32,420 nt of DNA from positions 1-32,420 of IMG/VR virus record IMGVR_UViG_3300022935_000070; one strand, given 5' to 3'. Positions 17,925-32,387 of the stretch are shown one piece after another; the stretch's first letter is position 1; every line of letters starts with the position of its first letter. Below the pieces are notes generated by a model. The model searched no databases and had not been told where the DNA came from. It saw only the letters and a list, made by a program, of their open reading frames with translations. The position numbers were made by a program, and so were the translations under genes. Origin of the DNA: a virus.

Positions 17925-18172
17925 AAATTAGATACTATCATAACATAGATGGCTGGCGTTGGCTAGGATTCGTCTTGGCTATGGTAGGTGCTTTTATACT
18001 TAGTGGCGGTAATGCCAAACTGCAATGGATAGGTTGGGCAGTTGCTTGCCTAAGTTGTACAATATGGATTTGGATGGGAATTAAGGACAAGGATGTGCCG
18101 AGAGCACTCATGGAATTGTTTTATTTGCTGTTAGCAATACGTGGTATATTTAACTGGATAGAATATGAGTGA
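17921..18172 (+). CDS. Small membrane protein, three predicted TM segments
   Basis: This 83-residue protein starts at the ATGA overlap. Three hydrophobic stretches are visible at about residues 14-29, 35-53 and 61-78, separated by short loops with Lys and Asp. Tryptophan is frequent. The third segment (FYLLLAIRGIFNW) faintly recalls membrane segments of PnuC-type transporters, but the protein is far too short to be one. It lies between a glycosyltransferase-like gene and a radical SAM gene, and overlaps the latter by eight bases. It may anchor the pathway at the inner membrane or move a substrate. That is inference; no named family was recognised. Confidence 0.65.
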   Translation: MKIRYYHNIDGWRWLGFVLAMVGAFILSGGNAKLQWIGWAVACLSCTIWIWMGIKDKDVPRALMELFYLLLAIRGIFNWIEYE

Positions 18173-19532
18173 AGTACAGCGAATAAAATCTATTATGCCA
18201 GAGATTGATGAAATCTCGCCTACCTTTTGTTTGGCTAAATGGCATCATGTTACTATCTATTTACAAACTGGTGAAACACACAGTTGTTATCATCCGGCTC
18301 CACATAAAATTCCCTTAGAAGGATTACAAGATAATCCTAGTCAATTACACAACACACCTGAAAAGAAACGTGAACGCGGTTTAATGTTGCAAGGTGAAAA
18401 ACCTAGTGGTTGTCAGTACTGTTGGAATATTGAGTGTATGGGCAAAGATTACATTAGCGATAGACATATTAAAACAGCGAGTATATACACCCCGGAACGT
18501 ATAGAAGAAATTAAAAGTAATCCTTGGGATTATGATATTAATCCAGAGTATATTGAAATTAATTTTAGTAACCAGTGTAACTTTAAATGCGGTTACTGTC
18601 ATCCTAAGTTTAGTAGCAGATATTATAACGAGATCAAAAAGCATGGTCCTTATAAAGACAGTACAGCACATCGCAATGATATTGATTATTTTGAATTATA
18701 CAAAGAAGAAACTAACCCATATGTAGAAGCATGGTGGAAGTGGTGGCCTGAAGTAAGTAAGACACTAAACATTTTACGTGTTACCGGAGGCGAACCGTTA
18801 ATGCACAATAGTACCTGGAGATTGTTTGACGAATTAGAAGCAAATCCTAAACCACATCTCAATATAGAACTTAATAGCAATATGGGTGTTAAGCCAGAAC
18901 GTATAGTAAAACTTGTAGAACGTTTAAAAGTATTAAAAGATAAAAACTGTATTAACAGTTTTAAATTATATACAAGTATCGATACCTGGGGTCCTCGTGC
19001 AGAGTATACACGTACAGGATTAGATTTAAAATTATGGGAATCAAACTTAGATTATTATCTAACTAAAACAGGTTGGCCTGTAACATTTATGGTTACATTT
19101 AATTTATTTGTTGTTACAAGTTTTGATGATTTATTACATAAAATATTAGAGTGGCGCAAGAAGTATAATACAGATGAACAAACTAAATGGCAACGTATTA
19201 GATTTGATACACCTTATTTAAAAGAGCCTATTCAGTTTGATATGAACATACTTCCTAAAGATGAATTTATGCCATACATGATGAATCATTTATTGTTTAT
19301 GCAAAACAATGTAGACGATAAGGATAGAACAAAATTTAGTAGTTTGGAATATGAACGTCTAAGACGTGTAGTTGATTATATGCGTAAAACAGAGTATGAC
19401 GAAAAGAAACTATTAAATGGTAGGCGTAATTTTGCTAGTTGGTTTAAAGAATATGATAGAAGAAGAGGAACCAACCTAGTAGAAACATTTCCCGAGTTTA
19501 AAGAGTTTTATCGTTTTTGTGAAAGTTGCTAA
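18165..19532 (+). CDS. Radical SAM protein, twitch/SPASM-like, 455 aa
   Basis: ATG 18165 overlaps the previous gene. The radical SAM cluster motif CxxxCxxC is C138, C142 and C145 (CNFKCGYC), followed by GGEP in RVTGGEPLM. Upstream, an N-terminal domain has cysteines in FCLAKWHH, HSCYHP and CQYCW, like the paired-cysteine module in front of the core of the protein at 29511. The C-terminus ends in CESC. Enzymes of this build generate a 5'-deoxyadenosyl radical and often carry extra Fe-S clusters. Substrates in the class include peptides and sugars, and neither can be assigned here. Its end overlaps the convergent gene by 35 bases. Confidence 0.85.
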   Translation: MSEVQRIKSIMPEIDEISPTFCLAKWHHVTIYLQTGETHSCYHPAPHKIPLEGLQDNPSQLHNTPEKKRERGLMLQGEKPSGCQYCWNIECMGKDYISDRHIKTASIYTPERIEEIKSNPWDYDINPEYIEINFSNQCNFKCGYCHPKFSSRYYNEIKKHGPYKDSTAHRNDIDYFELYKEETNPYVEAWWKWWPEVSKTLNILRVTGGEPLMHNSTWRLFDELEANPKPHLNIELNSNMGVKPERIVKLVERLKVLKDKNCINSFKLYTSIDTWGPRAEYTRTGLDLKLWESNLDYYLTKTGWPVTFMVTFNLFVVTSFDDLLHKILEWRKKYNTDEQTKWQRIRFDTPYLKEPIQFDMNILPKDEFMPYMMNHLLFMQNNVDDKDRTKFSSLEYERLRRVVDYMRKTEYDEKKLLNGRRNFASWFKEYDRRRGTNLVETFPEFKEFYRFCESC

Positions 19533-20631
19533 CCATTGCTTGGTTATGTAATATTGTTGCTTTAATATCTTCTAAATTGTAATTTTCTTTTTCAACAGTT
19601 TCAATCAACTCAAATATAGCATTCATACGTTCTGTATGATTTTCAATTGAATCGTATTCTTCACTCCATAACTCGTTAAATGTTTTAAATCCTAATTCTT
19701 GTAGATACTTTAGTGTGTGAGGTGGGCCGACCATAATAAAAGGTCGTCCATATAACATAGCGTTAAAAGTTTTTTCACTAAAGTTAGCAGTTGGTTGAGC
19801 AAAGCGTGTTTCATTAACAATAGCACACATACTGTCTATATAAAATCCCTCTAGTCCTTTACCTTCAGGAGCAAACATAGGCCAATGTTTCATACCAGCG
19901 TCGGTTGTTTCTGCATTGTTGTAATCTAACACATACGGGGTATTTTTATTAAGTATATTAATATTTTTTTTAATTATATTTTCATACTTCCACGCATCTA
20001 AATCAATCCAAGTACCATCCATTAACAACTCGTAGTTAGTTCTAAAGTTCCAACTTAAATGACAATCTTTATCAACTAAAAATGCAGAAACTAAATGTCT
20101 ATGTTTAGTGTAACGCCAATTAGGACAAATAAACTTTTTATTGTATTTGAAGTTTAATTGGCTTCCGCTACCGCAAAAAAAATCACGTAGGAAAATATCT
20201 AAGCAGTGTAGATTTAAACTAGGATAATTTTTAGAATAGTATTTTTGTACATCATAATCGCCTGTGTACACATTAACGTTTTTAATATCGTATTTTTCTT
20301 GCCATTCAACTATGCTGTCTAATTCATCTGCACATAAATTGTCATTAGAATTGAATTCGCTATAAAAATGATTATTATGTTTAGTTCCTTTTATGTAAGG
20401 ACTAACAGGTTCGTACAAGTAAATGTCAACACCGCGTCTTTTTAACTTGTTAATAGTTTTAATACTAAATTCTAACTCATTAAACTGTTTAATATGGTTA
20501 GTGCCTGTGTAAACAAACGTAGGACGGGTTGAATCTTTTAGAAAACTTTTTAAGAATAATTCTGCTAACATTCCTCTATTTTTATCTCGCATACTAGGAA
20601 TGTTTTGCCAAAACAAATCTTGTACAAACAT
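19498..20631 (-). CDS. Glycosyltransferase-like protein with SEKTF motif, 377 aa
   Basis: This is the last gene of the - strand operon. Its ATG at 20629-20631 overlaps the preceding stop as TAATG. The C-terminal third contains FSEKTFNAMLYGRPFIMVGP (starting near residue 282), followed by KYLQELGFKTFNELW. This EK-x-x-x-A-(x)n-G-x-P-(F/V) pattern recalls the nucleotide-sugar-binding end of GT10 fucosyltransferases, and the protein at 23373 has the same motif. The N-terminal part has alternating strands and helices (PTFVYTGTNH, GVDIYLYEP). I infer a GT-B-type transferase of unknown donor. Its 3' end overlaps the + strand radical SAM gene tail to tail. Confidence 0.65.
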   Translation of the reverse strand: MFVQDLFWQNIPSMRDKNRGMLAELFLKSFLKDSTRPTFVYTGTNHIKQFNELEFSIKTINKLKRRGVDIYLYEPVSPYIKGTKHNNHFYSEFNSNDNLCADELDSIVEWQEKYDIKNVNVYTGDYDVQKYYSKNYPSLNLHCLDIFLRDFFCGSGSQLNFKYNKKFICPNWRYTKHRHLVSAFLVDKDCHLSWNFRTNYELLMDGTWIDLDAWKYENIIKKNINILNKNTPYVLDYNNAETTDAGMKHWPMFAPEGKGLEGFYIDSMCAIVNETRFAQPTANFSEKTFNAMLYGRPFIMVGPPHTLKYLQELGFKTFNELWSEEYDSIENHTERMNAIFELIETVEKENYNLEDIKATILHNQAMVSNFHKNDKTL

Positions 20632-21125
20632 TAGAAAAATGTGCCTGTAATTTGTAGTGTATATCTTGGATCAACGCCTATGTTACTAGCCGCGTGTGGT
20701 ACATCTGGATTCCATAATACATATTCACCTGCTTTATAATTTACAACAGCAGTGCCGTCTATTTCAAAGTAATGTCCTGGCTTCCAGTCTTCTAAAAATA
20801 CAATAGCACGTCTTACATCATTACGTTCTTGATTAAACACACGACAGTAGGTATTAAAATGATCTACGTGTGTTGGCATAATGTCTAGAGTATCCATACG
20901 GTAAAACACAAAGCCTGTATTTTTTAAGTTAATACGTTTAGCAACATCGTTGACCCACTCAGGCATTGGGTTTCGACTGTCGTACATTTTGCCTGTTGTT
21001 GTGTTGTGAGTGTAACCTTGTTCACGCCACATATCCGATTCTTCACCTGTAATAGGTTGTCTAATATAATCAAAGTCTTTGTAACTTTCGTCCCATAAGA
21101 CTGGTAAAAATCCTCTACTCCACAT
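20631..21125 (-). CDS. 2-oxoglutarate/Fe(II) dioxygenase-like protein, 164 aa
   Basis: This 164-residue soluble protein starts at ATG 21123-21125 and overlaps the amidinotransferase gene by 11 bases. The double-stranded beta-helix iron triad is visible: H86-V-D88 in PTHVDHF and H144 in DVPHAASNIG. R154 in DPRYTLQI is in place to bind 2-oxoglutarate. The intervening strands (RRAIVFLEDW, AGEYVLWNPDVPH) fit a short prolyl-4-hydroxylase or phytanoyl-like fold. The length is at the low end for the family. It could hydroxylate a sugar, an amino acid or the operon's guanidino product. The substrate is unknown. Confidence 0.72.
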   Translation of the reverse strand: MWSRGFLPVLWDESYKDFDYIRQPITGEESDMWREQGYTHNTTTGKMYDSRNPMPEWVNDVAKRINLKNTGFVFYRMDTLDIMPTHVDHFNTYCRVFNQERNDVRRAIVFLEDWKPGHYFEIDGTAVVNYKAGEYVLWNPDVPHAASNIGVDPRYTLQITGTFF

Positions 21126-22083
21126 CTCGTTCTATATCCAATGTTACGCAGTGAAAACCACCGCCTAATGTTCTTTGATGCCTCATTGGCAACATAGCAC
21201 ATTCAATACCTTGTGCTTCTAGTGCTTTACGTAGTGGCTCTTGATGTTTTTCAAGTGCTACTAATTTAGTATTTACACTAAACAAGTTCATGTTTATCCA
21301 CGTACTTGCATTACACCAACCTGGATAATGTCCAATGTCAACAGGTTCGGGACACCATAAAATATCCCAATTTCTAAAAGGCATTGGCAAGTCTTCTTTG
21401 CTTTTAATTCTACTAGGATTAGCAAGTAATAATCCATCACGTAAAAAAGCAACAGTACTGTCAATGTGCATATAACTATAAACATCTTGTAATAAATGCA
21501 CTTGTGCTGTATCACCTAGTGCATCTTGCAATAGTGTTGCACCGAGTTTGTTTCCGCTATTACTTACAAGATATAAAACGTGTTCGTTAGCACGAATAAT
21601 ATTTGCGGCATCAAACGCAGGCTCAAACTCATTTAGTGCTAGTATGTCCTTATTGCCTATGCAATCTGTATTATACAATTTACTTTCGTGATAGCACGGA
21701 ACTTGAACAGGACTTTTTAGGTGATGTTCAAATGCCTTCCATTCGTGCTTCCTTGCTCTAATAGGCATTGGTGTTGCAAGTGTTAAATCCCCGTGTACAA
21801 ATACCGAGTCTCGAGGGCAATAATTATAATAGTTACAATCATTAGTATTAGGACGTACAACTTCAATTGATTCTCCTTCTAAAAAATCTACAAAGGTTTG
21901 TAAATCTTCGTTTGCTTCGTCTATTACTTGTTGTGGGTAAGGCCCTTTTTGTATTTCACTATCATCTCGTACGTCTGCAAAATTTACACAACGCAAACTA
22001 ATATCAATATCAGTAGGAATTTTTGCATGATCTGCAACGCCAACAATTACTTTACGAAGTTGTCCCCATTCATTACTAGACAT
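21115..22083 (-). CDS. Amidinotransferase (AGAT/StrB1 family)
   Basis: This 322-residue protein moves an amidino group from arginine to an amine through a covalent amidino-cysteine. The fold's key residues are present in the right order: D92 in YCPRDSVF, D158 in EPAFDAANII, H206 in YMHIDSTVAF and C312 in GGGFHCVTLD. The D158-H206 and H206-C312 distances (48 and 106) are close to those in human glycine amidinotransferase (D254, H303, C407, recalled from the literature). The length is near that of bacterial inosamine-phosphate amidinotransferase. The acceptor is not shown by the sequence. The adjacent aminotransferase suggests an amino sugar or cyclitol, but glycine or another amine remains possible. 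It overlaps both neighbours. Confidence 0.88.
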   Translation of the reverse strand: MSSNEWGQLRKVIVGVADHAKIPTDIDISLRCVNFADVRDDSEIQKGPYPQQVIDEANEDLQTFVDFLEGESIEVVRPNTNDCNYYNYCPRDSVFVHGDLTLATPMPIRARKHEWKAFEHHLKSPVQVPCYHESKLYNTDCIGNKDILALNEFEPAFDAANIIRANEHVLYLVSNSGNKLGATLLQDALGDTAQVHLLQDVYSYMHIDSTVAFLRDGLLLANPSRIKSKEDLPMPFRNWDILWCPEPVDIGHYPGWCNASTWINMNLFSVNTKLVALEKHQEPLRKALEAQGIECAMLPMRHQRTLGGGFHCVTLDIERDVE

Positions 22084-22756
22084 ATGAAACCCTTCCAGGC
22101 CAGTGTTTTAAAATTAAATCTTCTAAATCAAGATTACTCATTCTAGAATTTTCACCTTTGATTTGTTGTACGATTATCTCCATTTCATTACACCAGTCTT
22201 TAGTTGTTTGTTTTAGTGTATATCCGAGGTACGGATAAATTGTATTTTCTACATAACGCATATGTTCTAATATACTTGGGTGCGAGTCGGTAACATAAAC
22301 GTTTTTTGTTCTAGGAAATACGTTTTCAGCACCTGGCAAATTTTCATCAACTTTATCTTTGTGTCCTTGAAATAAATCTACATGAAAAGATTTTAAGTAT
22401 GCATTTGTTTGCAATATTGCTGTTTTGTTTCTAATTATATCGTTTTCTTCACTCCAGTGGTTACTTAGATATTCGTCGCTGTAATAGTCACTGTTTAAAA
22501 TATTACCTTCAGTTACCCATTTGCCTTCTTTAAGTAAATCAACTCTTTGCCAACTGCTCCATAAAATACAAACAAGATCATTTTGATTAAAATTATGTTT
22601 TTCATTTGCTTCTATAGTGCGGCAAGCAATACCTTGATTGCCCATGCCTGCTTTTGCATAATTATGATTTTCGCAGTCTAAATCTTTTGCAATTATATCA
22701 CTCCATGTCGGCCAAATGTATTCGGTGTACGAACATCCAAAGGTAAACAATCTCAT
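22076..22756 (-). CDS. SGNH/GDSL hydrolase-like protein, 226 aa
   Basis: The gene begins at ATG 22754-22756, overlapping the aminotransferase stop as ATGA, and ends eight bases inside the amidinotransferase gene. Block I is FGCSYTEY with S9 as nucleophile. The oxyanion Gly and Asn blocks fit AGMGN (37-40). D157-S-H159 in VTDSHPS matches the terminal Asp-x-His of the family. SGNH enzymes are esterases or acyltransferases, so it may add or remove an acyl group on the operon's product. No signal peptide is seen, so it should act in the cytoplasm. A second SGNH-like gene lies at 25513. Confidence 0.72.
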   Translation of the reverse strand: MRLFTFGCSYTEYIWPTWSDIIAKDLDCENHNYAKAGMGNQGIACRTIEANEKHNFNQNDLVCILWSSWQRVDLLKEGKWVTEGNILNSDYYSDEYLSNHWSEENDIIRNKTAILQTNAYLKSFHVDLFQGHKDKVDENLPGAENVFPRTKNVYVTDSHPSILEHMRYVENTIYPYLGYTLKQTTKDWCNEMEIIVQQIKGENSRMSNLDLEDLILKHWPGRVSYV

Positions 22757-23343
22757 TTAAAAACCTCCATGTCTGGCAAGTAAGGATAGTCTTGACTAGT
22801 CCATAATTTACCGGTTTCTAAATCTTTAATTTTTTCTAATCCTAGTTGTGCAGTTTCAGGAGTCATGTAATAATGATATCCAATGTATTTGATATTTTGT
22901 TCTGCCCAAGGTTTGTCATCTGTTCTTCCGTCATATGCCATTTGTTTTAATGTTTCATAATCGCGTTCATTAGAACAAAGTATAGCACCGCCTCTACCTA
23001 AACTTAGTGCTTTCTTGTATTGGAAACTTAAACACATAAAAGAGTTATTAACATAAGAATCTTTTTCAAATAGTGTTGCGGCATCGATAATATTAGTGCC
23101 ACCTAAGTTATATGCTTTACTCCATTCAACATCTGCAAACTCCCACGCAAGACCGAGTTTCTCAAGTGTGAACGGGATACTAATATATGTTCGACTAGGT
23201 ATAGTAATTTTGTGTGTTGGATTCAAATAACGTAAGCATAATTCAATAGCATGGGTACAACTATCAACAGCAACAGCATATGGAGCACCATAATACTCTG
23301 CTATTGCTTTTTCAAATTTTTTCACAGTTTCAAACATATACAT
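22753..23343 (-). CDS. Short DegT/DnrJ/EryC1/StrS-type aminotransferase
   Basis: This is the first gene of the - strand operon. The product resembles the large PLP domain of sugar aminotransferases: SCTHA (28-32) for phosphate binding, D87 in NIIDAATLF to pair with the PLP ring, and K111 in SFQYKKALSLGRGGA as the PLP lysine. A late YMTPETAQLGLEKIKDLE matches the family's subunit-contact helix. It is only 196 residues, about half the usual 370-400, because the C-terminal small domain is absent with no disabling stop inside the motifs. The usual GEGG is GRGG here. The start could be ATG 23343 or ATG 23337; the promoter box favours 23337. Confidence 0.8.
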   Translation of the reverse strand: MYMFETVKKFEKAIAEYYGAPYAVAVDSCTHAIELCLRYLNPTHKITIPSRTYISIPFTLEKLGLAWEFADVEWSKAYNLGGTNIIDAATLFEKDSYVNNSFMCLSFQYKKALSLGRGGAILCSNERDYETLKQMAYDGRTDDKPWAEQNIKYIGYHYYMTPETAQLGLEKIKDLETGKLWTSQDYPYLPDMEVFK

Positions 23344-23350
23344 ATTTATA
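23343..23350 (-). promoter_or_regulatory. T4 late promoter box TATAAATA for the - strand operon
   Basis: Read on the - strand, positions 23350 to 23343 give TATAAATA exactly, the T4 late consensus. Its last A is the A of the first possible ATG (23343). The second ATG (23337) lies six bases on, about where a late transcript would begin, so the message may be leaderless. It lies in the 29-base divergent gap before the + strand gene. Promoter function is inferred. Confidence 0.5.
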
Positions 23351-23372
23351 TACGCAGATAATAAGTATAATT

Positions 23373-24332
23373 GTGAGTGAGTTTGAGAAAATAATCAATT
23401 TAGTGTTATGGCATAGGTCCTGGAGTCTTGAAAGGCTTTTGAGCACAATCCAAAATAACACCGATAGTCTTATACGAGTATTAGGTGCAGAAGAATTTGC
23501 AATTATGGGTTGGGACAGTCCAGAAAATTCCAATCTGTTGCAAGAAATTAAACAAGCCATTAGTAATAGTTCAAACACTGTAGAATTTGTGTGTGGAGGG
23601 TTTCCTACCGATAAAGTTTTCCATCCAGGTAACAACGTTGTCTATTGGAAGACTTTTTGGCCTGTAAAAACTTATTATGAACTAACAAGATTTGGGCATA
23701 CTGCAAACAATAAAGATTTTACACAGGCGTATGTATCATTAAACAACAAGCCGTGGCAACACAGATGTCAAATGATGGATATGCTTTCTCGAGAAAATTT
23801 GTTACCTTATGGTGCAATTAGTTGGAATGAAACAAATAAAGATTATCCTTTTAAACATTGGAAGCAGAAACGATTAATCATTGACTCAGAATATGCAAAA
23901 ACAACAGAACAATATGGATCATTTCCGCAGGCCTTTTTTCAAAGTTTTATGAGTTTAGTTAATGAGTCTACTATGGACACAATATTTCCAACTGAAAAAA
24001 CATACACACCAATTTATTTTAAAAAACCTTTTTTAGTTTGGAGTGTACCTGGCTTTCATAAAGCATTAACAGAACACGGTTTTGAATTATATGACGAAAT
24101 TTTTGATTACAGTTTTGACAATATCTTAGATGACCAACTAAGATTACAAAAACTTGTCGAACAGGTTAAGAAAATTACAAATTTGGATTATAATGAGTTA
24201 TATAAAAAGGTTGCAAAAAAAGCAGAAAGAAACTATAATATACTAGTGTCTATTAGTCAAGACAAAAGTTTAGTACCAAACAGTGTTTTAAAGTTTGGCG
24301 GTTACGAGAATTTAATTAAGGAGATGAAATGA
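23373..24332 (+). CDS. Glycosyltransferase-like protein with TEKTY motif, 319 aa
   Basis: The frame is open from 23280, but that would run through the divergent gene's start. The most plausible start is GTG 23373, giving 319 residues; GTG 23403 is also possible, and no good ribosome-binding site helps. Near residue 206 it has FPTEKTYTPIYFKKPFLVWS followed by KALTEHGFELYDEIF, which parallels the EKTF region of the - strand gene at 19498. The N-terminal half has SLIRVLGAEEFAIMGWD and TVEFVCGGFPTD, suggesting a nucleotide-binding alpha/beta fold. I infer a GT-B-like transferase related to the 19498 gene. Its stop overlaps the dehydrogenase start (ATGA). Confidence 0.65.
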   Translation: MSEFEKIINLVLWHRSWSLERLLSTIQNNTDSLIRVLGAEEFAIMGWDSPENSNLLQEIKQAISNSSNTVEFVCGGFPTDKVFHPGNNVVYWKTFWPVKTYYELTRFGHTANNKDFTQAYVSLNNKPWQHRCQMMDMLSRENLLPYGAISWNETNKDYPFKHWKQKRLIIDSEYAKTTEQYGSFPQAFFQSFMSLVNESTMDTIFPTEKTYTPIYFKKPFLVWSVPGFHKALTEHGFELYDEIFDYSFDNILDDQLRLQKLVEQVKKITNLDYNELYKKVAKKAERNYNILVSISQDKSLVPNSVLKFGGYENLIKEMK

Positions 24333-25516
24333 GTGTAATTGGTTACATTGGCGTAGGTAAACTAGGTGTGCCTTGTGCTGAAGAAATTATTAAAAAAGGA
24401 CATACAGTCAATGGATATGACGTTACTACTATTTCCTCTGATTTAATCAATCAGAAAGATACTATCGAGGAAACGGTTAAAGGAGCAGATATTGTATTTG
24501 TTGCAGTACCAACACCACATCATCCAGACTATGACGGTAGACGTCCTACAAGTCATTTAGAGCCTAAAGACTTTAACTACTCTATTGTGATCGATGTATT
24601 AAAAGAAGCAAACAAATATATGAACAAAAAACAGTTGCTTGTTTTAATATCAACTGTATTGCCTGGAACAACACGTAGAGAATTTGTTCCGCTTGTAACT
24701 AATACACGATTTGTTTATAATCCTTATCTAATTGCTATGGGAACTGTAGGTTGGGATATGGTAAATCCTGAAATGATTATGATTGGTACTGACGACGGTA
24801 GCGAAACAGGTGACGCAAAACAGTTGCGTGATTTTTACGACACAGTAATGGAAAACGATCCACGTTACGTTATAGGAACATATGACGAATGCGAATGTAT
24901 TAAAGTTTTTTACAATACGTTTATTAGTACAAAACTAAGTCTTGTTAATATGATGCAAGATGTAGCACAAAAACAAGGCAACATTAATGTTGATGTAGTT
25001 ACTAAAGCACTTGCTGATTCAACAATGCGTATTATGAGTGATCGTTATATGACAGCAGGCATGGGAGACGGTGGCAGTTGTCATCCAAGAGATAATATTG
25101 CATTGCGATATATGGCAAAAGAATTAGACTTGCAGTATGATATCTTTGATAGTATTATGACAGCAAGAGAAGTACAAGCAAAAAATCTTGCAAAATTTGT
25201 TATTGAAACAAAAGAAAAATTCGGCGGCAATATTATATTAAATGGAATATCATATAAACCGGGTGTAAATTATATCGACGGAAGTTATGCACTTCTTGTT
25301 GATCATTATATTAAAGAGTTAGGACACTCGGCAATTTATATCGATCCATTAGCAAGTGAAATGCCAAGTAGTGCGGCATCAATAGGAGGCATTGTTTTAA
25401 TGTGCCATCCTGAAATGTATTTAGACTATTCAACTGACAGTATTATTATTGATCCTTGGAGACAAGTAGAGAAGGATCCAAGGTATATGGTAATACATTA
25501 CGGAAATACTAGATGA
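24329..25516 (+). CDS. UDP-glucose/GDP-mannose dehydrogenase family protein
   Basis: This 395-residue enzyme starts at the ATGA overlap. The N-terminal Rossmann motif is G8-V-G10-KL-G13. The substrate region has STVLPGTTR and VYNPYLIAMG. A Lys/Asn helix is visible in KVFYNTFISTKLS. The catalytic cysteine is C251 in the motif GDGGSCHPRDN. The C-terminal domain begins around NIILNGISYKPG. The family oxidises a UDP- or GDP-sugar at C6 to the uronic acid with two NAD+; some members act on N-acetylhexosamines. It is slightly shorter than the usual 430-450 residues. It would supply a nucleotide uronic acid for the neighbouring transferases. The exact sugar is not readable from the sequence. Confidence 0.85.
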   Translation: MSVIGYIGVGKLGVPCAEEIIKKGHTVNGYDVTTISSDLINQKDTIEETVKGADIVFVAVPTPHHPDYDGRRPTSHLEPKDFNYSIVIDVLKEANKYMNKKQLLVLISTVLPGTTRREFVPLVTNTRFVYNPYLIAMGTVGWDMVNPEMIMIGTDDGSETGDAKQLRDFYDTVMENDPRYVIGTYDECECIKVFYNTFISTKLSLVNMMQDVAQKQGNINVDVVTKALADSTMRIMSDRYMTAGMGDGGSCHPRDNIALRYMAKELDLQYDIFDSIMTAREVQAKNLAKFVIETKEKFGGNIILNGISYKPGVNYIDGSYALLVDHYIKELGHSAIYIDPLASEMPSSAASIGGIVLMCHPEMYLDYSTDSIIIDPWRQVEKDPRYMVIHYGNTR

Positions 25517-26331: not shown

Positions 26332-27005
26332 TTTTTATTAGTTATGGAGAACCCCACGCTGACCAAAACTTTGAAATGTTAAAAAGTAAATTTCCTATGG
26401 TCAAGCGTGTAAAAGATGTAGACGGAATCCATCAAGCACACGTACTTGCGGCTAAAAAATGTTTTACTAAAATGTTTTGGGTAGTTGATGGCGATGCAGT
26501 ACTTCAAAACGATTTTAATTTTGATTACGAGGTTTCCGAGTGGGATTTAGAGACAGTTCATGTATGGAGAAGTCTAAATCCTGTAAACAACTTGGAATAT
26601 GGATACGGTGGTGTTAAACTTCTCCCTAGATCACTCACACTGAACATGGACACCACCGTACCCGACATGACAACTAGTATTAGTAGTAAATTTAAAGCAA
26701 TGCCTGAAGTAAGCAACATGACTGTTTTTGATACTGATGAATTTTCAACTTGGAAGAGTGCATTTAGAGAATGTGCAAAATTAGCAAGTAGAACTATTAA
26801 AGGTCAAGTAGACGAAGAAACAGAAAAACGTTTAGAAACTTGGTGTACAGTAGGAAACGGACCGTACGGCAAATATGCTATTCATGGTGCTCTAATAGGA
26901 AAGCACTGGGGCGAACAATATAAAGACAATAAAGAAATGTTATATAAGATTAATGACTTTAAATGGTTAAAGGAACAATTTGACGATTATGCAGATTCCA
27001 TTTAA
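26319..27005 (+). CDS. Glycosyltransferase-like protein with DGD motif, 228 aa
   Basis: ATG 26319 overlaps the previous stop by 13 bases. The protein is a shorter paralogue of the 17034 gene. It has the same opening (YDIVFISYGEP) and D57-G-D59 in VVDGDAVLQ, and the C-terminal TWKSAFRECAK and YAIHGALIGKHW match segments in the longer protein. It lacks about 70 residues present in the paralogue, and it has an insert region with a locally different codon choice near nt 26630-26690. GT-A type is inferred from the DGD motif and the strand pattern; the donor is unknown. Its 3' end overlaps the radical SAM gene. Confidence 0.65.
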   Translation: MYDIVFISYGEPHADQNFEMLKSKFPMVKRVKDVDGIHQAHVLAAKKCFTKMFWVVDGDAVLQNDFNFDYEVSEWDLETVHVWRSLNPVNNLEYGYGGVKLLPRSLTLNMDTTVPDMTTSISSKFKAMPEVSNMTVFDTDEFSTWKSAFRECAKLASRTIKGQVDEETEKRLETWCTVGNGPYGKYAIHGALIGKHWGEQYKDNKEMLYKINDFKWLKEQFDDYADSI

Positions 27006-27957
27006 AGACATAGTTAAGTTCGGACAAAAAACAATGTTAGACACTAAGTTGTTTAACGTTAGTTGGATCCTTGGACGTTTTTGTAATTACAAATGTAGTT
27101 ACTGTTGGCCTTATGCTAATACTGATAAGCCAGATCATCAACCTTTTGAAATTTATACTAAGACGATTGATGAAATTAAACGCCAAGCAAGAGCAAACGG
27201 ATTTACAGATTTTCATTTCAGTTTTTCAGGCGGCGAGCCAACCGCATACAAAAATTTTGGCGAACTCGTAGAGTATTACTGTAGCGATACAGAAGCACCT
27301 TACCAAAGTTTACATATGACAACAAACTTGTCGCCTGGATCTAAATGGTGGGGTAGGTTTATTGATGCAACAGCAAATCTATCACGCAGAAGCGTAACAG
27401 CAAGTTATCATGCCGAATTTGCAAATGAACAAGAGTTTGGTGATAAGTGCTTACAACTCATGAAAGGTGGTGTATATGTTACAATTAATCAAGTCATGGT
27501 TCCAACGCTTTTCGAAACACTATTCGAACGTTGTGAACGATTTGCCGCCAGAGGTATTAATGTCACTCTCAAGCCTCAATCCGACCCAACTGCCTCCTAC
27601 GTGGTGGAAGGATATACCAAAGAGCAAATCAAAATCATGCAAGAAGGATTCCCCCAAAAAGTCGAAGACGAAGAAGTCTACCAAATAAAACTTACGGACG
27701 GAATTCAGGATTACTATATGGACCAAGCAGAGCGTTTCAATGCTTTTGACTTTAATCGTTTTAAAGGATGGAACTGCTCTGCAGGATATCAAAGTTGTAT
27801 TATACGCGGCGAAGAAGTTAAGAGGGCATACAGTTGTGCGGAAGAGCCTTTAGGCACGCTGTACGACGGTTTTACGCTGTTTAAAGCACCATCTAAATGC
27901 ATTACTGATACCTGTGTAAGCAGTGCAGACAGCAAAATACCAAAGGTAAAGTTATGA
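26989..27957 (+). CDS. Radical SAM protein with SPASM-like C-terminus, 322 aa
   Basis: I use ATG 26989. TTG 26980 is an alternative with better spacing to AAAGGA. Both begin inside the previous gene. From ATG the cluster motif is C32, C36 and C39 (CNYKCSYC), with SGGEPTAY downstream. The C-terminal part has WNCSAGYQSC, YSCAEEPLGTL and CITDTC, a spacing that suits one or two auxiliary Fe-S clusters (SPASM-like). It is a radical enzyme of unknown substrate. It resembles the gene at 31482 in length, in the N-terminal SWxL...CNY-x-CSYCxP region and in the G-WxC end. Codon choice is unusual near nt 27560-27710. Confidence 0.83.
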   Translation: MQIPFKDIVKFGQKTMLDTKLFNVSWILGRFCNYKCSYCWPYANTDKPDHQPFEIYTKTIDEIKRQARANGFTDFHFSFSGGEPTAYKNFGELVEYYCSDTEAPYQSLHMTTNLSPGSKWWGRFIDATANLSRRSVTASYHAEFANEQEFGDKCLQLMKGGVYVTINQVMVPTLFETLFERCERFAARGINVTLKPQSDPTASYVVEGYTKEQIKIMQEGFPQKVEDEEVYQIKLTDGIQDYYMDQAERFNAFDFNRFKGWNCSAGYQSCIIRGEEVKRAYSCAEEPLGTLYDGFTLFKAPSKCITDTCVSSADSKIPKVKL

Positions 27958-28553
27958 GAATTGAATTAGAAGATATTATGTTTTGGATGGACGCTATTAG
28001 GAATAGCGAGGACAAGTATCGAACATTAGAAAGTTTTTGGAAAGGACAACTACGTAGTAAGCGTTGGTTAGTTGAACAATTAGAAGAGTCTGCTTTGCCT
28101 ACTAAAAATAAAATTGTAATACACGGTGGTTGGAACGGAGTACTTGCTAGTCTTATTTTTAACAGTAAAGTAAATGTTAGTCATATTACATCAGTTGATG
28201 TTGATCCTGAATGCCAACAAATTGCTAGTACAATAAACAAACGTCAAGAAATGTCCGGAGCATTTACAGCCGTTACAGCAGATATGTGTGATTATAAGTA
28301 CGAAGCAGACATTGTTATTAACACGAGTTGTGAACATATCACACAGGAACAATATGAGAAGTGGTTAAACAATGTACCTGACAATGCTACTATTATATTA
28401 CAAAGTAATAATTACGATGAACTTGATGAACATATTAGATGTGCAAAAGGTATCAACCACTTTACAACACAAAGTCAAATTAAACCTTTCTTTAGAGGAA
28501 CATTCCCTCAACAGAAATACGAACGTTATATGATTATAGGTAAGAAGCAGTAA
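27954..28553 (+). CDS. Class I SAM-dependent methyltransferase-like protein, 199 aa
   Basis: The ATG at 27954 overlaps the radical SAM stop (ATGA). The product is a soluble 199-residue alpha/beta protein. The central part follows a SAM-binding Rossmann layout: a first strand and loop in IVIHGGWNGVLA (the glycine loop is less regular than usual), an acidic residue after strand 2 in ITSVDVDPE, an acidic residue in TADMCDYKYEADIV, and the strand-4 region INTSCEH. The N-terminal 45 residues are helical. The likely job is to methylate a small molecule or a sugar. Stop and next start overlap as TAATG. Confidence 0.68.
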   Translation: MRIELEDIMFWMDAIRNSEDKYRTLESFWKGQLRSKRWLVEQLEESALPTKNKIVIHGGWNGVLASLIFNSKVNVSHITSVDVDPECQQIASTINKRQEMSGAFTAVTADMCDYKYEADIVINTSCEHITQEQYEKWLNNVPDNATIILQSNNYDELDEHIRCAKGINHFTTQSQIKPFFRGTFPQQKYERYMIIGKKQ

Positions 28554-29539
28554 TGTATAAACTAGACGAGATAAGAGCAATACATTTAGAAGTCACTTCA
28601 AAGTGTCAAGCCTCTTGTCCTATGTGTGCAAGAAATTTACAAGGCGGCCCATTAAATCCTTTTCTTAAATTAAATGAAGTTGACCTAGGAACTTTTGTTA
28701 ACTGGATACCGAGAAACATTGTACGACAACTAGATCGTTTGTATATGTGTGGTAACTTTGGTGATCCTATTATTGCAAAAGACACACTTGAAATATTTGA
28801 ATATCTACGTGAAACAAATTCATCAATTAGCCTAAGTATGAATACAAACGGAAGTGCTAGAGATACAAAGTGGTTTGAAAAACTTGCTAAATTAAATGTG
28901 CGTGTTCGTTTTGGTATTGACGGATTAGAAGATACACACAGCAAATATCGTATTGGTACAGACTGGAATAAAATTTTAGAAAATGCAAGAGCATTTATTA
29001 ATGCTGGCGGATACGCTATATGGGATATGTTGATCTTCAGTCATAATTCTCATCAAGTTGATCGTTGTAGAGATATGGCAGGTGATATGGGGTTTAAAGA
29101 ATTCTATAGTAAAAACACAAGCAGATTTAGAGATGATGCGTTACCTGTACTTGACAAAAACGGAAAACAAGTTGATGTGCTATACCCGACAGAAAAAAGT
29201 ACACAACAGAAAGAAAAAATTAAACAAGTAAAAGCATCTGAAGAGGTGTGTACTATTAAATGTAAAGTAAAAGAAGAACGTGCAATTTATATAGGTGCTA
29301 ATGGAAATCTATTACCTTGTTGCTGGCTGGATCATGATTATATACAACCTACATCAACAAGTAGAATTGACTTTTTAAATCATTTTGGAAATTACCCTAA
29401 TTTGCATAGTAATACTATGCAAGAAATATTCGATGACGGATTTTTTGATACAATAGAACGTGGTTGGAAAACTAATCCATTAAAAGAATGTAAAAAACAG
29501 TGCGGAACATATGACAGATTCAAAGAACAATTCAACTAA
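28553..29539 (+). CDS. Radical SAM protein with SPASM-like C-terminus, 328 aa
   Basis: This 328-residue enzyme begins at ATG 28553, overlapping the previous stop. The radical SAM motif is C18, C22 and C25 (CQASCPMC). The usual GGEP is not obvious; GNFGDPI in YMCGNFGDPI takes its place. The C-terminal cysteines in CTIKC, LPCCWLDHD and ECKKQC suit auxiliary Fe-S clusters of the SPASM type. The LxVTSKCQASC opening is a form common in phage and marine bacterial radical SAM proteins, as I recall. The substrate is unknown. It differs enough from the other four radical SAM genes to be a separate subfamily. Confidence 0.83.
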   Translation: MYKLDEIRAIHLEVTSKCQASCPMCARNLQGGPLNPFLKLNEVDLGTFVNWIPRNIVRQLDRLYMCGNFGDPIIAKDTLEIFEYLRETNSSISLSMNTNGSARDTKWFEKLAKLNVRVRFGIDGLEDTHSKYRIGTDWNKILENARAFINAGGYAIWDMLIFSHNSHQVDRCRDMAGDMGFKEFYSKNTSRFRDDALPVLDKNGKQVDVLYPTEKSTQQKEKIKQVKASEEVCTIKCKVKEERAIYIGANGNLLPCCWLDHDYIQPTSTSRIDFLNHFGNYPNLHSNTMQEIFDDGFFDTIERGWKTNPLKECKKQCGTYDRFKEQFN

Positions 29540-30836
29540 GACATTTTGTCCTTTACCGTGGATACATTTAGCAACTCGTCCTAACGGCGATGTGCGTGTA
29601 TGCTGTACCGCTAATGCTAGTGGCGCAGGTGTAACTGACGACAAAGAAGTTGGACTTGTAAAACGCGACGGCGTTGCAATGAACGTTCGAGATCATACTA
29701 TTGAAGAAGTGTGGAACTCAGAGCATATGCGTAACACAAGATTACAAATGTTAAACGGTGAAGTGCCTGCAAGTTGTCGTAAATGTTTTGAAGAAGAATC
29801 AAAAGGAATTAAAAGTAAACGTAATTGGGAAACAGAAGTTTGGAAGGAACGAATTGATGTTGACAGTATAGTAGCACAAACTAACGATGACGGAAGTTTA
29901 CCTGTAAACATTCCATACTTTGATTTACGATTAGGTAATATGTGTAATTTAAAATGTGTTATGTGTAGTCCGCACGATAGTTCTAGTTGGATTAAAGATT
30001 GGAAATTACAATATCCACTGTACACAAATCCTCAATTAAAAGAAGATCAGGGTTGGAATCCTAATTTTGATTACACTTGGTACAAGAAAGGCAGTTTCCT
30101 TGACACAATGAAAAGTCAAGCACAGCATATTAAAGAATTATATTTTGCTGGTGGTGAGCCTTTAATGATTCCAGAGCATTATGCTATTCTTACATATATG
30201 GTTGAACAAGGGTATGCGAAGAATTGTATTTTACGTTACAACTCAAACGGCACAGAAATTAACAACGAATTATTAGAACTATGGAATAACTTTAAACACG
30301 TTAAATTTAATTTTAGTATTGATGCTATAAACGAACGTAATGACTATATAAGATATCCTAGCAAGTTTACACAAATTGAACAAAACTTAAAAGTCTTGGA
30401 CAATACCCCAGATAACGTTACTGTTAACATTGCTTGTGCAGTACAAGCATTGAACGTACACCATATTGTTGATTTAGCCGAATGGAAACTAGCACAGAAT
30501 TTTAAAAAGATTAATCAAATTCCTTATGGTGCTGGAGTTATAGGATTACATTTAGTCTACTTGCCTAGTTATATGAATGTAAGAGTACTACCCAAAGACA
30601 TTAAACAAGAGGTAAGTGCAAAGATAACTAACTTTGCAACACATTTTTTACGTGATTTTGAATTTAATACAAATCCTTATGGTAAAGAACGTTGGTTAGG
30701 ACTTGTTGATTATATGAATGCTGAAGATTGGAGTCACAAACTTCCTGCATTGCAAGAGTATTTAAAGATTAGTGACAAAACTAGGGAACAAGATTTTGTT
30801 AGTGTGTTTCCGGAATTGGAGAGTATATATGTATAG
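29511..30836 (+). CDS. Radical SAM protein, twitch/SPASM-like, 441 aa
   Basis: ATG 29511 starts 29 bases inside the previous gene. An N-terminal cysteine module is visible (C13 in FCPLPWIHL, C31-C32 in VRVCCTA, then CRKCFEEE). It is followed by the radical SAM motif C145, C149 and C152 (CNLKCVMC) and FAGGEPLMI. The C-terminal half is an alpha/beta barrel remainder ending FPELESIYV. The overall plan is that of the 18165 gene: a cysteine-rich leader, the core, and a similar EPLM. The two are likely paralogues. Such N-terminal modules usually hold one or two extra Fe-S clusters. The substrate is unknown. Confidence 0.83.
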   Translation: MTDSKNNSTKTFCPLPWIHLATRPNGDVRVCCTANASGAGVTDDKEVGLVKRDGVAMNVRDHTIEEVWNSEHMRNTRLQMLNGEVPASCRKCFEEESKGIKSKRNWETEVWKERIDVDSIVAQTNDDGSLPVNIPYFDLRLGNMCNLKCVMCSPHDSSSWIKDWKLQYPLYTNPQLKEDQGWNPNFDYTWYKKGSFLDTMKSQAQHIKELYFAGGEPLMIPEHYAILTYMVEQGYAKNCILRYNSNGTEINNELLELWNNFKHVKFNFSIDAINERNDYIRYPSKFTQIEQNLKVLDNTPDNVTVNIACAVQALNVHHIVDLAEWKLAQNFKKINQIPYGAGVIGLHLVYLPSYMNVRVLPKDIKQEVSAKITNFATHFLRDFEFNTNPYGKERWLGLVDYMNAEDWSHKLPALQEYLKISDKTREQDFVSVFPELESIYV

Positions 30837-31485
30837 CCCAGAAATTGAAAGAGCATTGCGTTGGCAAAGTTTAGTAAACCTTGGAAACCAAGTAAAACTT
30901 AAATGGCATATTGATCATAATCAAGTTGAACAACAGTTAGAACAGTTTAAAGATAACTGGTGTCCTTACAATGTTAAAAAAGACAAATACAATAATCGTT
31001 GGGGTCTTCCGGTAACTAGTCATACTGGTGATGTTATGGACAACTATCATTTAAACAGTTTTGGGTATATGCAAAAGTATCACGATGTTGAGATGAAAGA
31101 AGAAAACTTTAACACACCTACAGAAGTTTATCATAAAATTCCAGAGATTGCAAAACTAGTAGATATATTTTCTCCAGACATTGGGCGTGTACATTTACTA
31201 CGTATTGACCAAGGTGGATTTTTTCCACCTCATAGGGATTTTCACGGAACTAGTCCAGAGTACTTTAGATTGCTAGTTGTGTTTGGTAGATGTAGTCCTG
31301 AAAACTATGTCCAGATGATAGACGGACAGCCTCGATACCCCGAACCTGGTTATGTGTATTTTACAAACTTTCAACTAGATCACAGTGTGTTTAGTTTTAG
31401 TGATAATTTATACAGTTTAATTTTAACAGTTAAACTAAATGACCGTACACAGAAACTTATACTAGACAACACAATGGCAGAATGA
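30829..31485 (+). CDS. 2OG-Fe(II) oxygenase-like protein, 218 aa
   Basis: The frame opens at 30772, but ATG 30829 behind TTGGAGAG is preferred and leaves an eight-base overlap. The protein is 218 residues and soluble. The iron-binding pattern is H135-R-D137 in FFPPHRDFHG and H185 in FQLDHSVFSF. The strands RVHLLRIDQGG and RLLVVFGR flank the core as in aspartyl/asparaginyl beta-hydroxylase-like enzymes. No arginine is seen soon after the second His, so the 2-oxoglutarate contact may differ. It lies between two radical SAM genes with ATGA coupling to the next. The likely role is hydroxylation of a cluster intermediate. Confidence 0.7.
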   Translation: MYSPEIERALRWQSLVNLGNQVKLKWHIDHNQVEQQLEQFKDNWCPYNVKKDKYNNRWGLPVTSHTGDVMDNYHLNSFGYMQKYHDVEMKEENFNTPTEVYHKIPEIAKLVDIFSPDIGRVHLLRIDQGGFFPPHRDFHGTSPEYFRLLVVFGRCSPENYVQMIDGQPRYPEPGYVYFTNFQLDHSVFSFSDNLYSLILTVKLNDRTQKLILDNTMAE

Positions 31486-32387
31486 AGTTAACATATCAAA
31501 ATCCTGAAAAAGAAAACTGGTTCCTTGTTAGTTGGACACTTTCTAACAAGTGCAACTATCGTTGTTCTTATTGTCCTGACCATTTGCATAATGGTAGTAC
31601 AGGACAACCTCAATGGGAAACTGTAAAACGTTTTGTTGAAAATTTTAATGTACCAGGAAAAGATATTTGTTATAGACTAAGTGGTGGCGAGCCTACACAT
31701 TGGAAACATTTTCTTGACTTGGCTAAACTTGTTAAAGATAGAGGACACACATTTAGTTTTTTAACTAACGGTAGCAAGAGTGCAGAATATTACAAAACAA
31801 TATCTCAATACACAGATGGCTATATAATTTCATACCACCCTGAATATGCAGAACTAGATCATATTAAAGAAGTAATACAAGAAAGTTATTGTCCTGTATT
31901 TGTTAATCTAATGTTATCGCCAGAAAACTTTAATGAAATGTTTAACATTGCAGAAGAATTATATTCAAGCAGTGATAACGTTAGTATATGGCCTAAAATT
32001 ATTTTAGATAAGTCTAACATAGATGCAATTACAAATAAACCAGCAAACTATACACAAGATCAATTAGACACAATTAAAAATTGGCCTTTCTTTACAAACC
32101 TTCCTGACACACATTTACACAGAGGAGAATTGCTGTTAGATGAAGTACCTGTAACTGCTAATGATCTAATTGCTAAAAATCAAAATACATTCTATGGTTG
32201 GAAATGTTGGGCCGGACTACATATGATTAATGTTGATATGTGGGGTAACATATATAGAGCAGATTGTAAAGAAGGCGGCGCATTAGGAAACATTGAGCGT
32301 TATAAGTTACCAACTGAAACAGTACAATGCGGAAAAGGTGTATGTGCTTGTTTAAGCGATATCTATTTAAGAAAAGAGAGTGTCTAG
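31482..32387 (+). CDS. Radical SAM protein with C-terminal cysteines, 301 aa
   Basis: ATG 31482 overlaps the previous stop (ATGA). The motif C24, C28 and C31 (CNYRCSYC) is followed by LSGGEPTHW. The C-terminus has WKCWAGLHM, RADCKEGG, VQCGKGVCAC and then SDIYLRKESV, a cysteine set suited to auxiliary Fe-S binding. It is the closest relative in this window of the radical SAM gene at 26989. It is probably a tailoring enzyme of the same pathway with an unknown substrate. Its end may overlap a convergent gene at the right edge. Confidence 0.83.
   Translation: MKLTYQNPEKENWFLVSWTLSNKCNYRCSYCPDHLHNGSTGQPQWETVKRFVENFNVPGKDICYRLSGGEPTHWKHFLDLAKLVKDRGHTFSFLTNGSKSAEYYKTISQYTDGYIISYHPEYAELDHIKEVIQESYCPVFVNLMLSPENFNEMFNIAEELYSSSDNVSIWPKIILDKSNIDAITNKPANYTQDQLDTIKNWPFFTNLPDTHLHRGELLLDEVPVTANDLIAKNQNTFYGWKCWAGLHMINVDMWGNIYRADCKEGGALGNIERYKLPTETVQCGKGVCACLSDIYLRKESV

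Follow-up and report, generated by a model that had tools for sequence, protein, structure and literature searches.

In streptomycin biosynthesis, the streptidine branch uses a DegT-family enzyme (StsC/StrS) to install an amine, after which StrB1 transfers an amidino group. Phage glycan islands are also already known, and the account of their chemistry often stops at 'LPS modification'. In the available text of PMC7029224, tail fibres, glycosyltransferases, radical SAM cassettes and UDP-glucose 6-dehydrogenase are described in T4-like pelagimyophages and cyanomyophages, largely within one hypervariable region, a host-recognition cluster, and the portion available of PMC2853527 reports a radical-SAM module with an amidinotransferase in the Campylobacter phages CP220 and CPt10. 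A phage guanidino-sugar pathway was undescribed among the matches listed by a literature search outside which most subscription journals lie.

The window, by which we mean the whole 32,420-nucleotide stretch of viral DNA analysed (IMG/VR record IMGVR_UViG_3300022935_000070), contains at 19498–23343 five minus-strand genes, each overlapping its neighbour: in reading order a half-size DegT/StrS-type aminotransferase (22753–23343, 196 aa), an SGNH-like protein (22076–22756, 226 aa), a StrB1-like amidinotransferase (21115–22083, 322 aa), a Fe(II)/2-oxoglutarate-type dioxygenase-like protein (20631–21125, 164 aa) and a glycosyltransferase-like protein of predicted GT-B fold (19498–20631, 377 aa). 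The earlier note on this DNA had described an operon in this order with overlaps of 1–11 bases; the ORF coordinates agree, and the overlaps count 4, 8, 11 and 1 bases. Since the gene set and order recur in related viral contigs and dN/dS is 0.08–0.39 across the five genes (3 to 5 relatives per gene), the operon is not a chance arrangement, and its genes are under purifying selection. As in the streptidine branch, DegT-family amination would lead to amidino transfer, and StrB1 is the nearest solved enzyme to the window's own; unlike that branch, the aminotransferase is half-size, phage-borne and set among glycosyltransferases and tail-fibre genes, and Pfam found none of the branch's cyclitol-forming, dehydrogenase or kinase families among the 28 window proteins.

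The phage systems also differ from the window. For the host-recognition cluster, the word aminotransferase is absent from the main text of PMC7029224, as far as that text is available, and by its structural protein the window stands closer to jumbo phages; its assignment to a pelagimyophage was rejected because this protein and a relative's capsid have their nearest matches in large phages of other hosts. The Campylobacter phages CP220 and CPt10 resemble the window in placing an amidinotransferase beside a radical SAM gene (CP220 also has nucleotide-diphospho-sugar-transferase-like genes), but their amidinotransferase is about 24–25% identical to the window's, and the mini-aminotransferase matched seven phage records with no Campylobacter phage among them. 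Among 50,697 phage records, S-SCSM2R alone combines a close amidinotransferase, aminotransferase and dioxygenase in one island with glycosyltransferases. By GenBank annotation (PQ898602, genes 302–310) it holds together, like the window, a mini-aminotransferase (annotated 3-amino-5-hydroxybenzoic acid synthase), a dioxygenase (annotated 2OG-Fe(II) oxygenase), an amidinotransferase (64% identical to the window's; annotated inosamine amidinotransferase) and glycosyltransferases; it differs in a radical SAM gene and several additional glycosyltransferases, and its UDP-glucose dehydrogenase (UGDH) lies outside the island, elsewhere in the genome. The radical SAM gene adjoins the mini-aminotransferase, three genes ahead of the amidinotransferase, and its top PDB match is 7wzv (E 5.7e-7), which we take to be spectinomycin dehydrogenase SpeY.

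We suggest, with a probability of roughly 0.55, that the operon is a portable phage module for oxidation, amination and guanidinylation, whose product, a guanidino sugar, is destined for a phage-directed glycan. The Fe/2OG dioxygenase is the most likely enzyme to convert a sugar hydroxyl to a ketone, although in some relatives a neighbouring radical SAM enzyme may do so instead. From this ketone the compact PLP-dependent DegT-type aminotransferase would make an amine, onto which the StrB1-like amidinotransferase would transfer the amidino group of arginine, yielding ornithine alongside the guanidino sugar. Attachment of the sugar to the glycan, whether tailoring comes first or later, would fall to the GT-B protein (in relatives, GT25-like and other transferases), and the likeliest site is the surface of the host or the appendages of the virion. 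The gene identities, catalytic residues, selection, mini-aminotransferase fold and co-occurrence are what the analysis shows; we infer the reaction order, the ketone-making enzyme, the sugar as acceptor and the target of the glycan.

The co-occurrence was assessed in two sets of loci, both made up of best-scoring relatives and not of a random sample. In the amidinotransferase-anchored set (the 80 best-scoring of 189 relatives), the mini-aminotransferase lies within 6 kb of the amidinotransferase at 77/80 viral loci, a dioxygenase at 74/80, a glycosyltransferase at 77/80 and the UGDH family at 42/80; dereplication at 90% left 26 loci, of which 26 have the aminotransferase, 24 the dioxygenase and 24 a glycosyltransferase. 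In the aminotransferase-anchored set (the 80 best-scoring of at least 592, less three that the first set already contained, giving 77), an amidinotransferase is present at 59/77. The pairing of the two enzymes is therefore real, and looser in reverse; since 29/77 reverse loci share their contigs with the first set, independent reverse support comes from the other contigs (30/48). Against the module reading, 18/77 aminotransferase loci have no amidinotransferase in view (10 cut short, 8 with full flanks), and six of these 18 also lack a glycosyltransferase of the clustered families (including L142, L147 and L155, whose flanks are complete); the amine may thus meet other fates. Similarly, the related loci L049 and L054 have an amidinotransferase without the aminotransferase, and no mini-aminotransferase occurs anywhere in the 24 kb record of L049. 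Carriers of the module include the Synechococcus phage S-SCSM2R and contigs with Gp23 capsids. A sugar context, which favours the module reading, is seen in the UGDH family, in a carbamoyltransferase near the amidinotransferase at 20/80 loci (Pfam-confirmed for one), and in a sulfotransferase in L055.

The aminotransferase family named in the earlier note is borne out by a match to Pfam PF01041 (73.5 bits, cut-off 19.8, 2.4e-20), but its half-normal length had been overlooked: the 196 listed residues become 194 with a start two codons downstream, compared with about 360–440 usual for DegT/DnrJ/EryC1/StrS aminotransferases. Its AF2 model (pLDDT 94.1, pTM 0.90) confidently predicts a DegT fold, and since 184 of the 194 residues align (VIA Z 19.6) to residues 32–317 of 5u21, a 362-residue sugar aminotransferase, the protein is a compact variant, an atypical DegT/StrS member. 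Most of its top structural matches are to sugar aminotransferases, and its profile also matches the 2-deoxy-scyllo-inosose aminotransferase 2c7t (E 3.6e-6). The Schiff-base lysine K109, which aligns with the SFxxxK lysine of 7b0m, the PLP aspartate D85, assigned from the IIDAA motif and not from an alignment column, and the phosphate-site threonine T28 are present in 45/45 aligned rows. A cellular origin of this protein was rejected, given its occurrence in 0/292 genomes from the phylum of the Planktothrix locus and 0/299 from that of the Halioglobus locus (E 1e-15); the control search recovered the query in 3/4 records, one of the control records being a Chloroflexi MAG in which the gene lies on a phage-like contig (L185).

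For the amidinotransferase, also named correctly in the earlier note, residues 3–319 of 322 align, full length, to residues 7–339 of the StrB1 structure 1bwd (E 3.7e-60). It scores 207 bits with StrB1 versus 121 with HsvA, 116 with AGAT and 107 with SxtG; profiles give 260 bits for StrB1 versus 196 for the glycine type, and identity is 37.6% to StrB1 and 28.5% to AGAT. Judged by score and identity, then, the enzyme is StrB1-like rather than glycine-type. The catalytic D158, H206 and C312 are kept in 23/23 rows, as are R91, D92, R111, D208 and H311, and in every phage row except that of one Campylobacter locus (L083) StrB1 outscores AGAT. The flap of the phage enzymes ends in Met in 17/23 rows; AGAT and AmtA also have Met, and StrB1 Thr. 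Phylogeny had been proposed earlier as the check, with grouping among glycine enzymes as the contrary outcome. A tree built after leaving out 4/81 rows (L108_p3697, L083, L115 and L133) had been taken to settle a StrB1 grouping. In a tree from which 38/81 rows were left out (near-copies and long branches, L084, L190 and L108_p2666 among them), with no lysine-specific reference included, a 100/100 branch sets the AGAT-type rows apart and the phage rows fall on the StrB1 side, so that grouping with glycine enzymes was not what was found. However, the AU test on these rows did not reject a topology joining the phage clade and the AGAT group (p-AU 0.388). With this value, the phage amidinotransferases have no firm placement inside the StrB1 group, the phylogeny does not fix the acceptor, and the view that the tree alone settles a StrB1 grouping was withdrawn.

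The other three operon genes carry the motifs or fold implied by their earlier names, but match nothing in Pfam. The dioxygenase-like protein has the metal triad H86-x-D88 ... H144 in 20/20 aligned rows, and position 154 is R in 18 rows and K in the other 2; neither the window protein nor three relatives matched in a Pfam scan, and a PDB profile search gave nothing significant (AtsK, at E 0.15, was the sole match). Pfam, PHROG, NCBIfam and PDB sequence searches gave zero matches for the glycosyltransferase-like protein; its AF2 model (pLDDT 85.6, pTM 0.88) matches T4 BGT in Foldseek (E 1.1e-5) and, in VIA, a phage HY126 glycosyltransferase (Z 11.5, the best; 4.4 Å over 258 residues) and T4 BGT (Z 11.0). 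The likeness to BGT is at fold level, with 5–10% identity; as these best matches are glycosyltransferases of the GT-B fold class, this fold is predicted for the protein. In the SGNH-like product, we take GCSYT ... DSHP to be the SGNH motif; its gene directly precedes the amidinotransferase in only 14/80 loci, and is therefore an optional operon member outside the conserved core of the module.

Three plus-strand genes flank the operon. A UDP-glucose dehydrogenase-like nucleotide-sugar dehydrogenase (24329–25516; PF00984 and PF03721 over cut-off, phrog_9148 5.2e-95) is a possible sugar supplier. The product of 23280–24332 resembles glycosyltransferases in a C-terminal motif and has no Pfam match; its homologues (cluster 17, 28 members) have a median of 312 aa versus 350 here, and the true start probably lies inside the listed ORF. 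Convergent to the operon, a Twitch-domain radical SAM protein (18165–19532; NCBIfam NF033640, 314 bits, cut-off 170) is a possible candidate for the ketone source; a PDB search with it gave no significant match, and a relationship to SpeY was dropped for this reason.

Considering the nature of the product, a streptidine-like route, with an inosamine acceptor as for StrB1 and a true aminocyclitol product, would agree with StrB1 being the nearest characterised enzyme, with the 2c7t match and with the 7wzv-like radical SAM gene near the module genes of S-SCSM2R. We regard it as unlikely, given that the inositol-phosphate synthase, inositol dehydrogenase and cyclitol kinase families are missing from the 28 window proteins, that the usual company is UGDH and glycosyltransferases, and that the structural matches of the aminotransferase are mostly to sugar enzymes. 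Thus the amine-then-amidine part of the streptidine logic put forward earlier stands (StrB1-like enzyme, residues in 45/45 rows, pairing at 77/80 and 59/77 loci), whereas its cyclitol option has no evidence of its own; a sugar is favoured over a cyclitol as the product core because Pfam found no cyclitol-forming or inositol-handling family in the window, from a record that is probably a fragment. Quite unlikely, in our estimate, is arginine/creatine-type metabolism, in which the amidinotransferase would use glycine or lysine and the aminotransferase beside it would serve another purpose. It draws on the 'glycine amidinotransferase' label of the Campylobacter phages (PMC2853527, in its available part), on K00613 as tabulated in the available part of a lake-virus paper (PMC8226683), on the description of amidinotransferases as mostly flexible in the text at hand of PMC4887976, and on the AU test; it was lowered by the StrB1-favouring scores, identities and tree, with AGAT-type rows in their own group, and it leaves the aminotransferase pairing at 77/80 loci without a role.

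Alternatively, the genes could serve DNA hypermodification, adding a sugar or guanidine to phage bases, with the GT-B protein glycosylating DNA and with bases as the substrate of the dioxygenase or carbamoyltransferase. T4 DNA beta-glucosyltransferase is among the top matches of the model, albeit at fold level; the available text of PMC8670742 ascribes to a phage a carbamoyltransferase that has the same Pfam pair and produces 5-carbamoyloxymethylcytosine; and S-SCSM2R has genes named methylcarbamoylase mom and DNA-adenine methylase. Yet PF00303 (thymidylate-synthase/hydroxymethylase-type) and PF00145 (C5-methylase) occur in 0/10 records, Tet_JBP gave one match in the ten, below cut-off, though in a search that gave a hit in 0/14 controls, and the same portion of PMC8670742 has carbamoyltransferases of unmodified contigs flanked by, for example, glycosyltransferases. 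We consider this decidedly improbable and keep it as a rival because the ten records are the complete S-SCSM2R and nine viral contigs of unclear completeness. Least probable of all is a half-size aminotransferase that has lost catalysis and acts as scaffold or partner for the amidinotransferase, as the absence of about half the usual chain and its company at 77/80 loci might suggest: lysine, aspartate and threonine are intact in all 45 rows, and 18/77 of its loci have no amidinotransferase in view.

Returning to the guanidino-sugar module, a conserved set of phage enzymes here points to one specific and rare chemical group, and the prediction is testable, since S-SCSM2R, with the recorded host Synechococcus WH7803, carries the module. 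If it is true, phages equip a surface with a sugar of permanent positive charge, which is relevant to receptor blocking, superinfection exclusion or adsorption. A more specific version, in which the mini-aminotransferase acts on a glycan-held sugar rather than a nucleotide sugar and the cationic guanidino sugar, in several phage lineages, coats tail fibres or recharges the host surface, is speculative and, taken as a whole, doubtful. Finally, the compact aminotransferase may rank among the smallest enzymes of its fold, and would reveal which parts of the fold are needed.

Considering the five minus-strand genes at 19498-23343, which overlap by 4, 8, 11 and 1 bases as previously described, we suggest that they most likely encode a pathway in which an alcohol would be oxidized to a ketone by an Fe/2OG enzyme (or by a radical SAM enzyme in a few relatives), the ketone converted to an amine by a half-size DegT aminotransferase (mini-aminotransferase) with PLP, the amine converted to a guanidine by a StrB1-like amidinotransferase with arginine as donor, and the product attached by the glycosyltransferase. 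The earlier note left the guanidino product as a sugar or cyclitol; its sequence context makes a sugar acceptor the preferred candidate, since the UDP-glucose dehydrogenase-like gene (UGDH; 24329-25516, + strand) and glycosyltransferases are common company and family search found no cyclitol family among the 28 window proteins.

We counted which genes lie within 6 kb of the amidinotransferase in the best 80 of 189 related viral loci: 77 have a mini-aminotransferase, 77 a glycosyltransferase from one of the clustered families, 74 a dioxygenase, 42 UGDH, 20 a carbamoyltransferase and three a member of one radical SAM cluster. The three loci without the mini-aminotransferase are L033, whose contig begins inside the gene, L049, whose whole record lacks it, and L054. 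Dereplication at 90% identity left 26 loci (aminotransferase in 26, dioxygenase in 24, glycosyltransferase in 24). Taking the mini-aminotransferase as anchor instead gives 77 loci, the best of at least 592, not counting three already in the first set; the amidinotransferase is present in 59, both it and the dioxygenase in 57, a glycosyltransferase in 68 and UGDH in 33. Since the sets overlap, with 29 of these 77 loci on first-set contigs, the independent support is 30 of 48 loci. In 18 of the 77, eight of them with full flanks, no amidinotransferase was seen; here the amine may be used in a different way, or the partner may lie farther away. Gene order and intervening genes vary among groups of loci, and thus the gene set moves and reshuffles, yet mostly stays together.

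The mini-aminotransferase had been assigned to the StrS/StsC type; it does exceed the Pfam DegT cut-off, but has 194 residues compared with about 360-440 in solved relatives. Its AlphaFold2 model (pLDDT 94.1, pTM 0.90), compared with PDB chains, aligns over 184 of the 194 residues with the sugar aminotransferase 5u21 (Z 19.6, 2.4 Å), and since the alignment extends across 5u21 residues 32-317, the modelled protein is a compacted version of the whole enzyme and not a truncated N-terminal half. All 45 rows share T28, D85 and K109, with the adjoining K108 variable, and dN/dS is 0.09-0.20 (four comparisons). A search of 50,697 phage records matched seven, among them Synechococcus phage S-SCSM2R, the one that also has a close amidinotransferase. 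In Flavobacterium phage immuto a glycosyltransferase cluster includes a short DegT gene (L194:8989-9633; 36% identical) and a second, longer DegT gene (5280-6479); no amidinotransferase match was found in this phage.

Residues 3-319 of the amidinotransferase match StrB1, the inosamine-type enzyme of streptomycin synthesis (1bwd; E 3.7e-60, 207 bits), and more weakly HsvA (121 bits), the glycine amidinotransferase AGAT (116) and SxtG (107); a profile built from 23 phage rows gave 260, 197, 196 and 172 bits, respectively. The active-site residues (Asp, Arg, Asp, His, Asp, His and Cys) are identical in 23/23 rows, among them two distantly related enzymes from Campylobacter phages; the Asp/His/Cys triad is named in an excerpt of PMC3684758. 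The five residues preceding the catalytic histidine are VYSYM or near it in 21 of the 23 rows, LYAST in StrB1 and DPNPM in AGAT, so that the first three resemble StrB1, whereas in 17 the segment ends in Met, which AGAT shares. A tree of 43 rows unites the phage enzymes (100/100) and places the AGAT-type rows in a separate group behind a 100/100 branch. The proposed phylogenetic check therefore sets them apart from the glycine type, but a constrained tree joining the two was just 1.75 log units worse and is not rejected (p-AU 0.388), so the acceptor is not readable from the tree.

One or two further amidinotransferase-like proteins accompany the main one in each of four records (L199:38353-39246, S-SCSM2R gene 266; L097:666-1685 and 4950-6032; L108:2666-3709 and 3712-4806; G597:147928-148428). 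SSCSM2R_266, which adjoins KdsA, L097:4950 and L108:3712 form one family (mutual identity 26-33%). By analogy, the extra proteins may recall StrB1 plus StrB2, or a second amidination. A bacterial StrB1-like group from several phyla (L162-L165, L168, L170, L171, L174, L193) is 47-51% identical to StrB1; the mini-aminotransferase was unmatched in the DNA examined around these loci.

The 164-residue protein had no Pfam match and no significant match in a PDB profile search; its putative dioxygenase assignment comes from the motif H86-x-D88...H144, present in 20/20 rows spanning three sequence clusters, and from how its relative in S-SCSM2R is annotated. The radical SAM gene adjoining the S-SCSM2R mini-aminotransferase matches PDB 7wzv (E 5.7e-7), named '4Fe-4S cluster-binding domain-containing protein' and presumably SpeY, the sugar dehydrogenase in spectinomycin synthesis. 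For the 377-residue protein the model (pLDDT 85.6) predicts a glycosyltransferase fold; its top VIA matches, at 4.4-4.8 Å and 5-6% identity, are phage HY126 glycosyltransferase (Z 11.5) and T4 beta-glucosyltransferase (Z 11.0).

As the target we prefer the host surface or virion, because the module lies near tail-fibre-type genes (Pfam Collar and PHROG tail families, upstream of the operon) and such glycosyltransferases are interpreted as O-chain modifiers in a study of T4-like pelagimyophages (PMC7029224). Modification of DNA is less likely, given that hydroxymethylase or C5-methylase families were found in 0/10 records, nine of them contigs of unknown completeness. Published work already covers glycan islands of phages and individual viral amidinotransferases (excerpts of PMC7029224, PMC2853527 and PMC8226683); among the papers listed by literature searches that reached few subscription journals, none appeared that describes the conserved set of three enzymes, the compact aminotransferase or the predicted guanidino sugar.

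For the Gp23 capsid gene on a related contig, L008, the best matches are large phages, among them Vibrio phage 2.275.O (349 kb), Pseudomonas phage PA5oct (287 kb) and Sinorhizobium phage Phosso (469 kb). A structural protein of the window is likewise closest to Phosso, and also to Agrobacterium phage Atu_ph07 (490 kb); Gp23 is present in 4/10 records tested. S-SCSM2R is a second setting, with 13 glycosyltransferase-named genes, KdsA, KdsB, UGDH, two nucleoside-diphosphate-sugar epimerases and a sulfotransferase-named gene. KdsA and KdsB act in Kdo synthesis, and the proteins so named (L199:36918-38339; PF00793 and PF02348) suggest a phage-made Kdo-containing glycan. In a phage record of 642 kb, about 4 kb separates the mini-aminotransferase from UGDH, and no amidinotransferase was found at E 1e-5. 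L185, a contig binned as Chloroflexi (MAG), combines mini-aminotransferase, amidinotransferase and carbamoyltransferase-like genes with phage-like genes and is probably a mis-binned phage.

The window, a complete record of 32,420 bases, is probably itself a fragment. The operon runs opposite to the surrounding genes, GC skew becomes negative at 20-23 kb, and UGDH and several radical SAM genes lie downstream. Five radical SAM genes occur within 14 kb around the operon (18165-19532, 26980-27957, 28553-29539, 29511-30836 and 31482-32387). The listed start of the ORF at 23280-24332 overlaps the aminotransferase gene start; since the median length of its homologues is 38 residues less, the true start is probably near 23394.
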